Of a DNA stretch of 64,000 bases, positions 43,629-53,913 are shown one piece after another. Source of the DNA: Actinomycetospora termitidis (GTDB lineage Bacteria > Actinomycetota > Actinomycetes > Mycobacteriales > Pseudonocardiaceae); assembly GCF_030286555.1 (NCBI RefSeq), contig NZ_JASVWF010000001.1, positions 1 through 64,000 on the forward strand. Direction: 5' to 3'. The position numbers and the translations under genes are program-made. The notes under the pieces are model-generated. The model was not told the origin of the DNA. It ran no database searches and was given only the letters and a program-made list of their open reading frames with translations. Numbering within the stretch: position 1 is the stretch's first letter; every line of letters starts with the position of its first letter.

Positions 43629-45140
43629 TCATTGGGCGAGACGGCTGAGCATGCCCTCGCAGCTGCGGACGACGACCGTGCAGGCGTCCACCGTCGCCCG
43701 GCCCGAGACCGGGTTCGCCGCCCGCCGCCGCCACCGCGTGAGCGCATCGACCACCGCGACCTGCTGGGCGCCCGCGTCCGCCTCGGGATCGAGCCCGAGT
43801 CGCGCCGGAGGGCGGGACCCGTGGCCACCGATGAGCCGCTCGGCCTCCTCACGGGCGTCCGCGGGCAGCGGGACGGACTTCGCCCGCAGGGCAGCGAGAA
43901 GCCGCAGCTCCGCGAACTCGTGCGCGCCCGCGAAGATGCGCTCGACGTCGGCCGCGAGGGACGTTCCGGCCGGCCGCGGCTCACGCTGCAGGACCAGCTC
44001 CACCGCGAGCAGCGCCGACCGGGCCTTGAGCAGGTCGCGACGCTCCCCGAACTGCGTGGCGAGCACCTCGCGCAGCTCGTCCAGCCCGCTCGCCGCGACG
44101 AGCTCCGTGGAGAGCTGCGCGGCGTCCGGGGCGTGATCCCGGAGCGCCGCGATCGAGGTCCGTACACCGAAGACCCCCATCCGCTTCAGCAGCGCGTCCC
44201 GGCTCGACGCGTCCGGGACGTCGGACCCGAGGCGGTCGCGCAACGAGTCGGGCGGGTTGACGAAGCGGTCGGCGGAGAGCAGCAGCGCCTCGGTGACGTC
44301 GGGCGGGAGCGCCGCCAGTCCGCGCAGCCCGAGGAACTCCTCCTGGCGCATGGTGCGCCCGGACAGGGCCACGAGGCCGGCGACCGCGACGACCGTCTGG
44401 CAGAGCGCCGAGAGCTTCTCGTCGGTGCGGTACCGCCCGGCGATGCGCCGGGCGGAGTCGATTGCGTCCAGCCGCCCCGCCCCGATCTCGTCGGCCCGGG
44501 ACAGGACCGCGATCGTCGAGACCGGGGTGGCCCGCGCGACGTGCCGGTCGTGGAACGACTCCAGGAACCGCGCGTCGGCGGAGTGCAGGTGGCGCATCAG
44601 GTAGAGCACGGCGTCGGCCTGGCTCGGTGCCTCGTCGGGGGTGAGGAACTGGCTGGCCCGTTCGGAGGTGTCGGCCGTCAGGGACGCGATCCCCGGGGTG
44701 TCGATCAGCGACGTCGTCCGGAGCCCGGACGACGGCCAGTCGACCGTGAGGCGATCGACCGCCGTCGGGTCCTCCCCCTCCAGGTCGACGACGAGCCCTC
44801 CGTGATCGGTCCGTCGGGTACGCAGCTGACGCGGCGGGCCCTGGCGCGGGTGGAGCAGGATCCGCGGGCTCGGCCCGTCCTGGTACCAGGTGACGACCCG
44901 CGTGCACTCCCCCGCGTCCGTGGCGGCGATCTCCTCCCCGACGAGCGCGTTGAGCAGGGTCGACTTGCCGGCCTTGACCTTGCCCGCGATCGCGAGGCGC
45001 AGCGGCTCGTCGAAGCGCTCGAGATGGTGGTTCAGCCACCCGGACGCCTGCGGGCTGTCGCCGTAGACCTCGAGGGCGCGGCGCAGCAGGGTGCGCGTCT
45101 GCGCGCCCAGGCCCGCCGGACGGGTCGTCGTCTCAGTCAT
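43629..45140 (-). CDS. iniC: IniC-like dynamin-family GTPase
   Basis: A 503-residue bacterial dynamin-like protein. The G1 P-loop is AIAGKVKAGKSTLLNAL (about 50-66), G2 probably GECTRVVTW, G3 DTPGIAS. G4 appears as SRAD instead of the usual (N/T)KxD, which may weaken guanine selection. Helical assembly regions follow, with no membrane hairpin as clear as in the partner. It overlaps the iniA-like gene by 8 bp, the order and coupling of mycobacterial iniA-iniC, which bend or divide membranes under cell-wall stress. Confidence 0.82.
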   Translation of the reverse strand: MTETTTRPAGLGAQTRTLLRRALEVYGDSPQASGWLNHHLERFDEPLRLAIAGKVKAGKSTLLNALVGEEIAATDAGECTRVVTWYQDGPSPRILLHPRQGPPRQLRTRRTDHGGLVVDLEGEDPTAVDRLTVDWPSSGLRTTSLIDTPGIASLTADTSERASQFLTPDEAPSQADAVLYLMRHLHSADARFLESFHDRHVARATPVSTIAVLSRADEIGAGRLDAIDSARRIAGRYRTDEKLSALCQTVVAVAGLVALSGRTMRQEEFLGLRGLAALPPDVTEALLLSADRFVNPPDSLRDRLGSDVPDASSRDALLKRMGVFGVRTSIAALRDHAPDAAQLSTELVAASGLDELREVLATQFGERRDLLKARSALLAVELVLQREPRPAGTSLAADVERIFAGAHEFAELRLLAALRAKSVPLPADAREEAERLIGGHGSRPPARLGLDPEADAGAQQVAVVDALTRWRRRAANPVSGRATVDACTVVVRSCEGMLSRLAQ

Positions 45141-51904: not shown

Positions 51905-53913
51905 TGAGTACGTACCGGCTCGGGATCGACCTCGGGACCACCTACACCGCGGCCGCCGTGTGCCGCCGCTCCGGCGACGGCTGGTCCGAGCCCGAGATCG
52001 TCGCCCTGGGCAGTCGGTCCGCGTCGGTCTCGTCCGTGCTCTACCTCGGCGCCGCCGGCGAGGTCCTCGTCGGTGAGGCCGCCGAGCGGCGCGCCCACAC
52101 CGAGCCCGAGCGGGTGGTCCGGCAGTTCAAGCGCCGCGTCGGGGACGACGTCCCGCTCGTCGTCGGCGACGCCGTGCACACCGCACACGCGCTCGCCGCG
52201 CGCCTGGCCCGGTGGGTGGTCGACAAGGTCGCCGAACGCGAGGGTGGCCCGGCGGACACCGTGGCCGTCACCCACCCCGCGAGCTGGGGCGACCACAAGC
52301 GCGAACTGCTCGCGGGCGCGCTGCGCGAGGTCGGTCTGACCGGCACCACCTTCCTCCCCGAGCCCCAGGCCGCAGCCGTCGCGTACGCGGCGAAGGAGCG
52401 CGTCGAGACCGGCTCGGCGGTCGCGGTGTACGACCTCGGCGGCGGCACCTTCGACGCCGCGGTGGTGCGCAAGAGCGCCGGCGGCTTCGAGCTGCCCGGG
52501 CGTGCGGAAGGCATCGAACAGCTCGGCGGGGTCGACTTCGACGACCGGGTCCTCGACCACGCGCGGGCCGGGATCGGCGCCGCCTTCGACGAGCTCGACC
52601 CCGAGGACCCGGACGTGCAGTCCGCGGTCCGCCGGTTGCGCCAGGAGTGCGTCGAGGCCAAGGAGGCCCTGTCGGCGGACACCGAGGTGACCATCCCGGT
52701 GATGCTGCCGTCGGTCCGGACGAACGTCCGGCTCACCCGGCACGAGTTCGAGTCGATGATCCGCTCGTCGCTCGACCACACGGTCGACGCGCTGACCCGC
52801 ACCGTCTCCTCCGCGGGCCTGTCGGCCGACGACCTCCAGGCGGTCCTGCTCGTCGGCGGGTCCTCCCGGATCCCGCTGGTCGCGCAGATGGTGTCCGAGG
52901 CCCTCGGCCGCCCGGTCGCCGTCGACGCCGACCCCAAGACCTCGATCGCGGTCGGTGCGGTCCTGACCGTGGCGCCGCGCGCCGCGGCGCCCGCCCGGTC
53001 GGCGGCACGGGCAGCGAGCACGGACGTCCCCAACGCGGCCGCGGCCGCCGCGGCGACGTCGACGATGCCGCAGGGCGCCGCACCCGCGCGCTCGACCGGG
53101 CCCTCGTCCGGGCTGCTCGACCTCCGCTCGGCGGCGAGCACGCCGACCCCCTCGCGCCCGACCCGCACCGGCCCGCCGTCCACCCCGGTCCCGGCGACCG
53201 GGCCGGGGTCGTCCCGGTTCCCGGCGGTCGGGGAAGGCCGGACCACCCGCATCACGACGGGCCCCGGGTCGGGTCGGATGCCCGCGGCACCGATCGCGCC
53301 GGCGGGTTCGCGGAGCGGTCCCGGGTCCGGCTACTTCGCGGCCCCCCAGGGCCCGGCGCCCGCCTCCACGCCGTTCCGCTCGCCCGCGGCCGACGACCGG
53401 ACCACCGTCACGCCCGGGGGACGCACACCGCCGCGCCCGCCGGTCGCGGCGCCGGCGGCCCTGCGGGAGGAACCCGCCGCGGAGCAGCCGGAGACGGTGC
53501 CCCGCTCGCGGACCCGACTGCTCGTCACGGTCGCGGCCGCCGTCGTGGTCGTCGCCGCCGCGACCACCGGGGGCGTGGTCTACGCCCGCAACGCGTCCGT
53601 CTCGGCCACGGTCGTGCCGCCCGCGCCGACCACCAGCGAGGTCGTTCCCGCCGTGGTGGCCCCGCCGGCCGCGGTCGTCGAGGACCCGTCGACGGGCGGG
53701 ACCGGCAGCAGCGGCGGTACGGGCGGGAGCGCCGGCTCCCGCGGCGGGTCGTCGTCCGGGGGCTCGGGCTCCTCCTCCGGCGGCTCGTCCGGGGGTGGCC
53801 ACCACGGCTCGACGACCACGACCACGAAGCCCACCTGGAAGCCCGAGGGCACCCCCGAGCCCTCGAACGTCCCGACCCCGGACAACGACGCGGGCTCGGG
53901 CTCCGGCAGCTAG
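51904..53913 (+). CDS. Membrane-anchored Hsp70-like ATPase (second of two)
   Basis: The 669-residue paralogue of the preceding gene has near-identical ATPase motifs (GIDLGTTYTAAAV, VYDLGGGTFDAAVV, VLLVGGSSRIPLV). Its disordered linker is longer (about 160 residues, Pro/Thr/Arg/Gly-rich). A membrane helix lies near 537-561 (RLLVTVAAAVVVVAAATTGGVVYA). A 108-residue extracytoplasmic tail rich in Gly/Ser (SSSGGSGSSSGGSSGGGHHG) follows. The peptide-binding domain is again missing. Two non-identical ATPases with different tails could form a heteromer. The ATG overlaps the previous stop. Confidence 0.85.
   Translation: MSTYRLGIDLGTTYTAAAVCRRSGDGWSEPEIVALGSRSASVSSVLYLGAAGEVLVGEAAERRAHTEPERVVRQFKRRVGDDVPLVVGDAVHTAHALAARLARWVVDKVAEREGGPADTVAVTHPASWGDHKRELLAGALREVGLTGTTFLPEPQAAAVAYAAKERVETGSAVAVYDLGGGTFDAAVVRKSAGGFELPGRAEGIEQLGGVDFDDRVLDHARAGIGAAFDELDPEDPDVQSAVRRLRQECVEAKEALSADTEVTIPVMLPSVRTNVRLTRHEFESMIRSSLDHTVDALTRTVSSAGLSADDLQAVLLVGGSSRIPLVAQMVSEALGRPVAVDADPKTSIAVGAVLTVAPRAAAPARSAARAASTDVPNAAAAAAATSTMPQGAAPARSTGPSSGLLDLRSAASTPTPSRPTRTGPPSTPVPATGPGSSRFPAVGEGRTTRITTGPGSGRMPAAPIAPAGSRSGPGSGYFAAPQGPAPASTPFRSPAADDRTTVTPGGRTPPRPPVAAPAALREEPAAEQPETVPRSRTRLLVTVAAAVVVVAAATTGGVVYARNASVSATVVPPAPTTSEVVPAVVAPPAAVVEDPSTGGTGSSGGTGGSAGSRGGSSSGGSGSSSGGSSGGGHHGSTTTTTKPTWKPEGTPEPSNVPTPDNDAGSGSGS

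Follow-up and report, generated by a model that had tools for sequence, protein, structure and literature searches.

Do two Hsp70 genes that stand back to back with a cluster of ini-type dynamin genes form one system with the dynamins? The question is raised by a stretch of 64,000 nucleotides from Actinomycetospora termitidis (contig NZ_JASVWF010000001.1, positions 1 to 64,000; hereafter the window), in which the genes for an IniA-type (45133-46950, minus strand) and an IniC-type (43629-45140, minus strand) dynamin-like GTPase are preceded by three genes for low-complexity proteins and are separated by a divergent regulatory region of 271 bp (50026-50296) from two genes for membrane Hsp70s (no. 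1, 50297-51904; no. 2, 51904-53913; both plus strand). An earlier interpretation made from the DNA letters alone (the sequence-only reading) had joined these genes into one machine, and the dynamins, the low-complexity genes, the 271-bp gap and the Hsp70 pair all hold on recheck. Judged by its genes, the window holds an extended form of the known iniBAC/IniR system, and the comparison with other genomes described here gives the idea of one system a better foundation than the sequence-only reading could know. The recurrence of Hsp70 with ini-type dynamins in these sequences suggests that iniBAC is part of a larger membrane-remodelling system.

In mycobacteria, iniBAC is a strong transcriptional response to cell-wall drugs (PMC11832169). 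IniA remodels the membrane (PMC6715688), IniAC has been linked to vesicle release (PMC11832169), and iniBAC is activated by IniR, a protein of AAA+/MalT-like/LuxR type for which chromatin immunoprecipitation sequencing revealed binding upstream of the operon (PMC5760070). The window has in common with this system an IniA-type dynamin, a second dynamin, a candidate IniB-type N-terminal domain and an IniR homologue (PMC5760070, PMC6715688). It differs in its two Hsp70 genes, which are transcribed away from the ini side, in three low-complexity proteins against one IniB in the known operon, and in an IniR gene that lies past iniC rather than adjoining the divergent region.

Hsp70 genes at ini-type dynamin loci

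Stretches of 20 kb around dynamin matches were taken in 41 related genomes, regardless of the presence of Hsp70, and further loci came from a phylum sample (IniA at E ≤ 1e-40) and an order sample (IniA at E ≤ 1e-100, found in 116 of 248 genomes; flanks were obtained for 26 of 126 IniA loci). Defining an ini-type locus by an IniA match of 280 bits or more gave 80 loci, of which 78 have an Hsp70 match in the flank. The figure is 75 of 77 when we exclude the window, L022 (found via its Hsp70) and L061 (which overlaps L060). The two loci lacking a match are L128, where a contig end is near, and L184, with a flank of only 12 kb; four of the flank Hsp70 matches are weak (109-117 bits). IniA and Hsp70 lie a median of 1.9 kb and at most 6.7 kb apart, and a crude chance expectation is ~2% per 20 kb (109 Hsp70 match rows, 16 genomes, ~97 Mb). 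The union of Hsp70, IniB, IniA and IniC, which had been proposed for the window, is by this survey a recurrent genomic unit.

Hsp70 and the ini genes are divergent in 60 of the 80 loci. The commonest layout is <IniR <Hsp IniA> IniC> (46 loci), followed by IniA> IniC> Hsp> (11 loci) and by the window type, <Hsp IniA> IniC> <IniR (9 loci), with 14 others. Gene order and strand thus vary among loci (divergent, co-directional downstream, convergent), and Hsp70 is nonetheless close.

The two partners have also descended together. Pairwise distances of IniA and of Hsp70 were correlated over 77 loci (r = 0.746), the largest value in 500 permutations being 0.116. For seven genomes of the same genus with three ini clusters each, the correlation rose to r = 0.954, a value that no exchange of Hsp70 partners inside the genomes attained in 2000 trials, and the nearest neighbour in another genome was of the same cluster type in 21 of 21 cases for IniA, IniC and Hsp70 each. 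Such paired descent, as read from the sequences, shows that the pairs stayed together and says nothing on interaction. In a tree built from the ATPase domains of 83 Hsp70s, one split (support 100/98) separates all 45 ini-linked rows, together with 8 unlinked ones, from the 15 rows that are linked to dynamins here called DynAB-like (our own provisional label), together with a further 15 unlinked rows. An Hsp70 lies in the flank of 18 of 23 DynAB-like dynamin pairs.

This second class, more distant than the ini type, is also represented in the genome of the window, by a dynamin pair at L046 (G000:C27:74000-93999) that has an Hsp70 of its own. Setting L144-L151 against L088, L094, L099, L101 and L104, we observed DynAB-like pairs with no nearby Hsp70 in several genomes of the family, and elsewhere in these same genomes there are unlinked Hsp70s that belong, in the tree, to the DynAB-linked side.

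Another account of these data is that the genes travel as a block under a common stress promoter, with Hsp70 serving the envelope independently of both the dynamins and IniR. Any stably linked block would give paired descent, and about half of the Hsp70 loci at large are away from dynamins: of 55 loci for Hsp70s that are not DnaK and consist of the nucleotide-binding domain only, found in 16 genomes, 28 are near a dynamin by our own reading of the search results. The sequence-only reading would have been undermined by Hsp70s that usually occur apart from dynamins, and its expectation stands for the ini-type Hsp70 clade, which stays linked, but not for nucleotide-binding-domain-only Hsp70s at large. 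We judge independent service within a travelling block improbable, given that order and strand differ between loci while Hsp70 remains close, and that there are two classes of dynamins, each with its own Hsp70 clade.

It had further been stated that mycobacterial iniBAC has no Hsp70 partner, and this is not general. Genus code g15 is probably Mycobacterium, judging from the IniA of one of its genomes (G031, locus L110), which matches the solved M. smegmatis-type IniA (6j72) with 1014.8 bits over 598 residues, and from a dnaK gene ~21 kb from iniA in G031. An Hsp70 is present in all five g15 loci covered (L110, L121, L122, L181 and L182), downstream of iniC in L122. L110 has an Hsp70-like gene (4469-6382, minus strand) and, after 6 bp, a gene (1979-4462, minus strand) for an 827-amino acid protein with a LuxR-type helix-turn-helix, both divergent from IniB-type genes, iniA and iniC. 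Judged by its length, domain content and position, this protein is probably IniR. A dnaK-like gene beside iniR has been described in M. smegmatis (PMC5760070). Apart from that one sentence, the available parts of published iniBAC accounts do not treat Hsp70 as part of the system, and our literature search found no other mention, within the texts available, of Hsp70 beside ini genes.

Architecture and copy number of the membrane Hsp70s

Both window proteins match the Pfam HSP70 profile (E = 8.6e-45 for no. 1 and 3.5e-54 for no. 2), at profile positions 2-371 of 599 only, which is the nucleotide-binding part. Each contains GIDLGTT, DLGGGTFD and LVGGSSRIP, which we take to be the phosphate and adenosine motifs of the nucleotide-binding domain. 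A hydropathy scan found a membrane segment in both, at about residues 477-495 of no. 1, behind the N-terminal nucleotide-binding domain, and at residues 536-555 of no. 2, where it precedes a disordered tail. In an AlphaFold2 model of no. 2 (from an 18-row alignment), residues 1-357 mostly have a predicted local distance difference test score (pLDDT) above 90, residues 536-555 form a helix, and the remainder is disordered. An ATPase domain, a proline-rich linker and one membrane segment are the design of most relatives scanned; the scan found no membrane segment in some of them, chiefly DynAB-linked ones and also those of L095 and L102. The window Hsp70 is 78% identical to that of Actinomycetospora soli. 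From the positive residues before the helix, the ATPase domain is predicted to lie on the inner side of the membrane and the tail on the outer side.

These features bear on the possibility that the Hsp70s are ordinary DnaK-like folding helpers, placed here by chance or for general stress. Their ATPase domain does have a fold near that of DnaK, and a Foldseek search of the PDB with no. 2 gave DnaK and other Hsp70 ATPase domains as best matches. Unlike DnaK/Hsp70 chaperones, with which the nucleotide-binding fold is held in common, the window proteins have a single membrane helix after the ATPase domain and a disordered tail, and no substrate-binding domain was found either in the profile matches or in the model of no. 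2 after residue 370; they are therefore read as not being folding chaperones. The linkage to dynamins is far over chance, and related genomes hold separate full-length DnaK genes. An ordinary chaperone role is, in our assessment, very improbable.

The two window Hsp70 genes have one base in common, and their products are 81% identical across the ATPase domain. Compared with the single copies of four loci in the same genus, no. 2 is 83-87% and no. 1 76-78% identical. L048, L053 and L077, the orthologous loci whose flanks are complete, carry only one Hsp70 each (L083 and L021 stop at a contig edge and are uninformative here). By this comparison the tandem pair is a local feature, confined to this genome as far as the orthologous loci compared go, and we reject it as either the typical or the ancestral arrangement. 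In a quick tree, copy P0006 branches outside the other window-type copies of the genus (support 0.96), which would fit either an old duplicate that this genome has retained or a copy that evolves faster.

IniR and the box in the divergent region

The window also has an open reading frame for an IniR-like STAND/LuxR-type regulator (35074-37884, plus strand; the true start is probably ~240 bp further in), which the sequence-only reading did not include. It sits 5.7 kb past the end of iniC and ~12 kb from the Hsp70s, has a LuxR-type helix-turn-helix (GerE, E = 4.9e-14) and is 43% identical over 359 residues (234 bits) to the IniR of L110. An IniR past iniC is found in L048, L053, L077 and L083 as well. 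Across the ini-type loci, an IniR relative lies in the flank of 61 of 80, often directly behind Hsp70. In 48 same-strand Hsp70-IniR pairs the median gap is -4 bp and the gap is 30 bp or less in 38, as measured to the nearest possible IniR start, a choice that biases toward small gaps. In L121 (genome G110), IniR stands between two Hsp70 genes, with another copy of the box described below between IniR and the second Hsp70.

This close coupling raises the possibility that the membrane Hsp70 is mainly a sensor or brake for IniR, in the way that the transporter ATPase MalK restrains MalT. Hsp70 would hold IniR at the membrane until envelope stress alters either the nucleotide state of Hsp70 or the tail embedded in the wall, and the dynamins would be output only. 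The short gaps between Hsp70 and IniR, with the bias just given, fit such a brake, as do the commonest layout, in which IniR follows Hsp70 (46 of 80 loci), and a tail predicted to be disordered and to lie outside a single transmembrane segment. Against it, 19 ini-type loci have no IniR in the flank and 18 of these have Hsp70, the reverse being seen only in L184 with its 12 kb of flank; Hsp70 also accompanies most DynAB-like pairs, and IniR in the window is remote from the Hsp70s. On balance we regard a role mainly as an IniR brake as unlikely, though far from negligible.

A five-species alignment of the divergent region revealed conserved blocks, among them an invariant GGGCCATCGGGGCGA. The strongest dyad in 60 divergent regions was CCC-TAA, present in 37 against 5.1 expected, with a z score of 14.1 against a highest value of 4.6 in a shuffled set. 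The motif is TTAGGGGAT, frequently in tandem; it is exact in 20 of the 60 regions and present with at most one mismatch in 40, compared with 0.1% exact and a further 0.7% with one mismatch in 2853 control windows drawn from these loci. Box copies are oriented toward Hsp70 in 38 of 40 cases, and 26 of the 39 exact copies in 2.67 Mb fall in 27 kb of divergent regions. Across 248 genomes we counted 29 copies of the tandem form TTAGGGGATTAGGGG, against 2 for a reversed-pattern control; 23 of the 29 are located 1250-3665 bp upstream of iniA, 7 in loci used for motif discovery and 16 outside them. One of the six remaining copies (G031:C1:1107508, ~7506-7522 of L117, G031:C1:1100000-1119999) adjoins an IniB-domain gene, and no dynamin was found in the 20-kb stretch around the two; this gene is possibly a separate member of the same regulon.

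In the window, the candidate IniR box TTAGGGGCTTTGCCCTAG (50229-50246, plus strand) contains at 50229 the copy TTAGGGGCT, with one mismatch to TTAGGGGAT, inside a block conserved in the five species. No second copy of the surrounding 18-mer occurs in its own genome, as one would expect for a pattern drawn from the window itself. A scan of the divergent region found no sigma-70-like promoter or terminator. The form GGGGATTAGG equals the MalT box, GGGGA(T/G)GAGG, at 9 of 10 positions (PMC7567727). The MalT regulon thus resembles the IniR-box set in its STAND/LuxR-type activator and in its box, and the IniR-box set differs from it in having other target genes and tandem direct repeats 8 bp apart, unlike the spacing given for Actinoplanes MalT in the available part of that report (PMC7567727). 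A shared control of the two sides, as had been suggested for the window, is in keeping with the strong enrichment of the box across the set of divergent regions.

A possible Hsp70-dynamin machine and its neighbouring genes

From the genes, architecture, linkage, paired descent and common box established by comparison, we infer binding of IniR to the box, a joint response of both sides and an action of Hsp70 on the dynamins. Envelope stress would activate the MalT-like IniR, by analogy with published mycobacterial work, and IniR would bind the boxes of the divergent region and switch both sides on together. IniA and IniC would then come together at the inner surface of the membrane and reshape the membrane by fission, vesicle release or repair; the IniB-like proteins would be a putative scaffold. 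Hsp70 would be anchored in this membrane, the ATPase domain facing inward and the tail reaching into the wall, and could work as a clamp or switch, powered by ATP, for recruiting, ordering or dismantling the dynamin polymer. That the window encodes an IniR-controlled envelope-stress machine of this kind, in which the membrane Hsp70 acts on dynamin assembly or on the polymer, is in our estimate about evenly balanced, resting as it does on sequence comparison and analogy. In its favour, Hsp70 stays with dynamins in loci that lack IniR and with the second, DynAB-like class.

Several observations weigh against such a machine. Linkage and paired descent are equally predicted by inheritance as a block, and 27 of the 55 nucleotide-binding-domain-only Hsp70 loci noted above are away from dynamins. 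IniA-type dynamins (E ≤ 1e-40) were found in only 19 of 149 phylum genomes. No Hsp70 was found in the flanks of seven phylum-level single dynamin loci (L129-L135), of three single dynamin loci (L047, L090 and L120) or of five DynAB-like pairs (L088, L094, L099, L101 and L104), nor near the dynamins of three genomes of family code f18. The phosphate-binding motifs of the ATPase appear degenerate in the ini-linked Hsp70s of L045, L089 and L098, which would fit a nucleotide sensor better than an ATPase. In many loci the gene to which Hsp70 is coupled is iniR and not iniA/iniC, an arrangement that speaks for a regulatory role. As to the box, 20 of the 60 divergent regions have no copy of TTAGGGGAT at one mismatch or fewer, and the window copy with its one mismatch is not significant by count alone (3 found, 1.33 expected).

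A broader proposal, to which we give somewhat less than an even chance, is that the ancestral ini system was a membrane machine of Hsp70 and dynamins controlled by a single IniR box, in which a membrane-fixed Hsp70 devoid of the substrate-binding domain drives assembly or release of the polymer, and that iniBAC loci with no Hsp70 next to them are reduced forms. If true, such a machine would be a functional, but not an evolutionary, parallel in bacteria to the control of membrane coats by Hsp70. If the comparison is right, the membrane Hsp70 is a regular partner of the ini dynamins and a target sequence for IniR is named, so that the absent partner and the logic of the promoter both become open to direct tests; the Hsp70 would also be an example of an ATPase domain of this family at work with no substrate-binding domain.

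The first dynamin is firmly assigned to the IniA type: it matches Pfam Dynamin_N (E = 3.3e-20) and, in a phmmer search, solved IniA 6j72 over residues 7-592 with 463 bits (E = 1.5e-137). IniC, the second dynamin, is encoded directly downstream in a frame that shares 8 bp with iniA; it matches Dynamin_N (E = 9.4e-12) and, in the PDB, Nostoc BDLP (E = 1.3e-8) and IniA (E = 0.0045). A side-by-side pair of dynamin-like GTPase genes is also found in Campylobacter (DLP1/2) and Streptomyces (DynA/DynB), for which, unlike the window, the available parts of the accounts name no Hsp70 partner (PMC6104087).

Three low-complexity proteins are encoded between iniA and the divergent region. The IniB-like protein (47528-48253, minus strand) has an N-terminal helical domain at about residues 15-72 and a remainder of low confidence; in its AlphaFold2 model the N-terminal blocks have a pLDDT of 80-94 and the rest mostly 50-60. 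It scores 31.1 bits (E = 1.6e-7) against NCBIfam IniB_NTERM, below the cut-off of 40, which its positional orthologues pass with 64 bits (G014:C13) and 55.4 bits (G016:C69) or narrowly miss with 39.1 bits (G003) and 38.5 bits (G001). The first gene of the ini side (48337-50025, minus strand) encodes a protein rich in histidine, glycine, threonine and proline, which comparison with orthologues showed to be 57-59% identical to those of L048 and L053 over its first 150 residues, and the gene next to iniA (46984-47517, minus strand) an acidic, histidine-rich protein with 59% identity over 63 residues to its counterpart in the orthologous locus L053. Family scans gave no match for either of these two. 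The open reading frame 47514-48569 (P0004) was rejected as a gene and is read as spurious because it is arginine-rich and overlaps better frames.

Two neighbouring genes were considered and set aside as parts of the system. Directly downstream of iniC is a DUF6777 gene (42349-43500, minus strand), absent from the sequence-only reading, whose product has an N-terminal membrane segment; we rejected it as a constant part, as tblastn, in a comparison that took in orthologous loci, gave a match only in the window among the 77 loci L044-L120 and L021-L023. On the other side, the LPG_synthase_TM/flippase-like gene P13 (53910-55058) has its first 4 bp in common with the Hsp70 no. 2 gene and is taken as a neighbour; a P13-like gene recurs adjoining several ini loci of the same genus, with an orientation that is not fixed.

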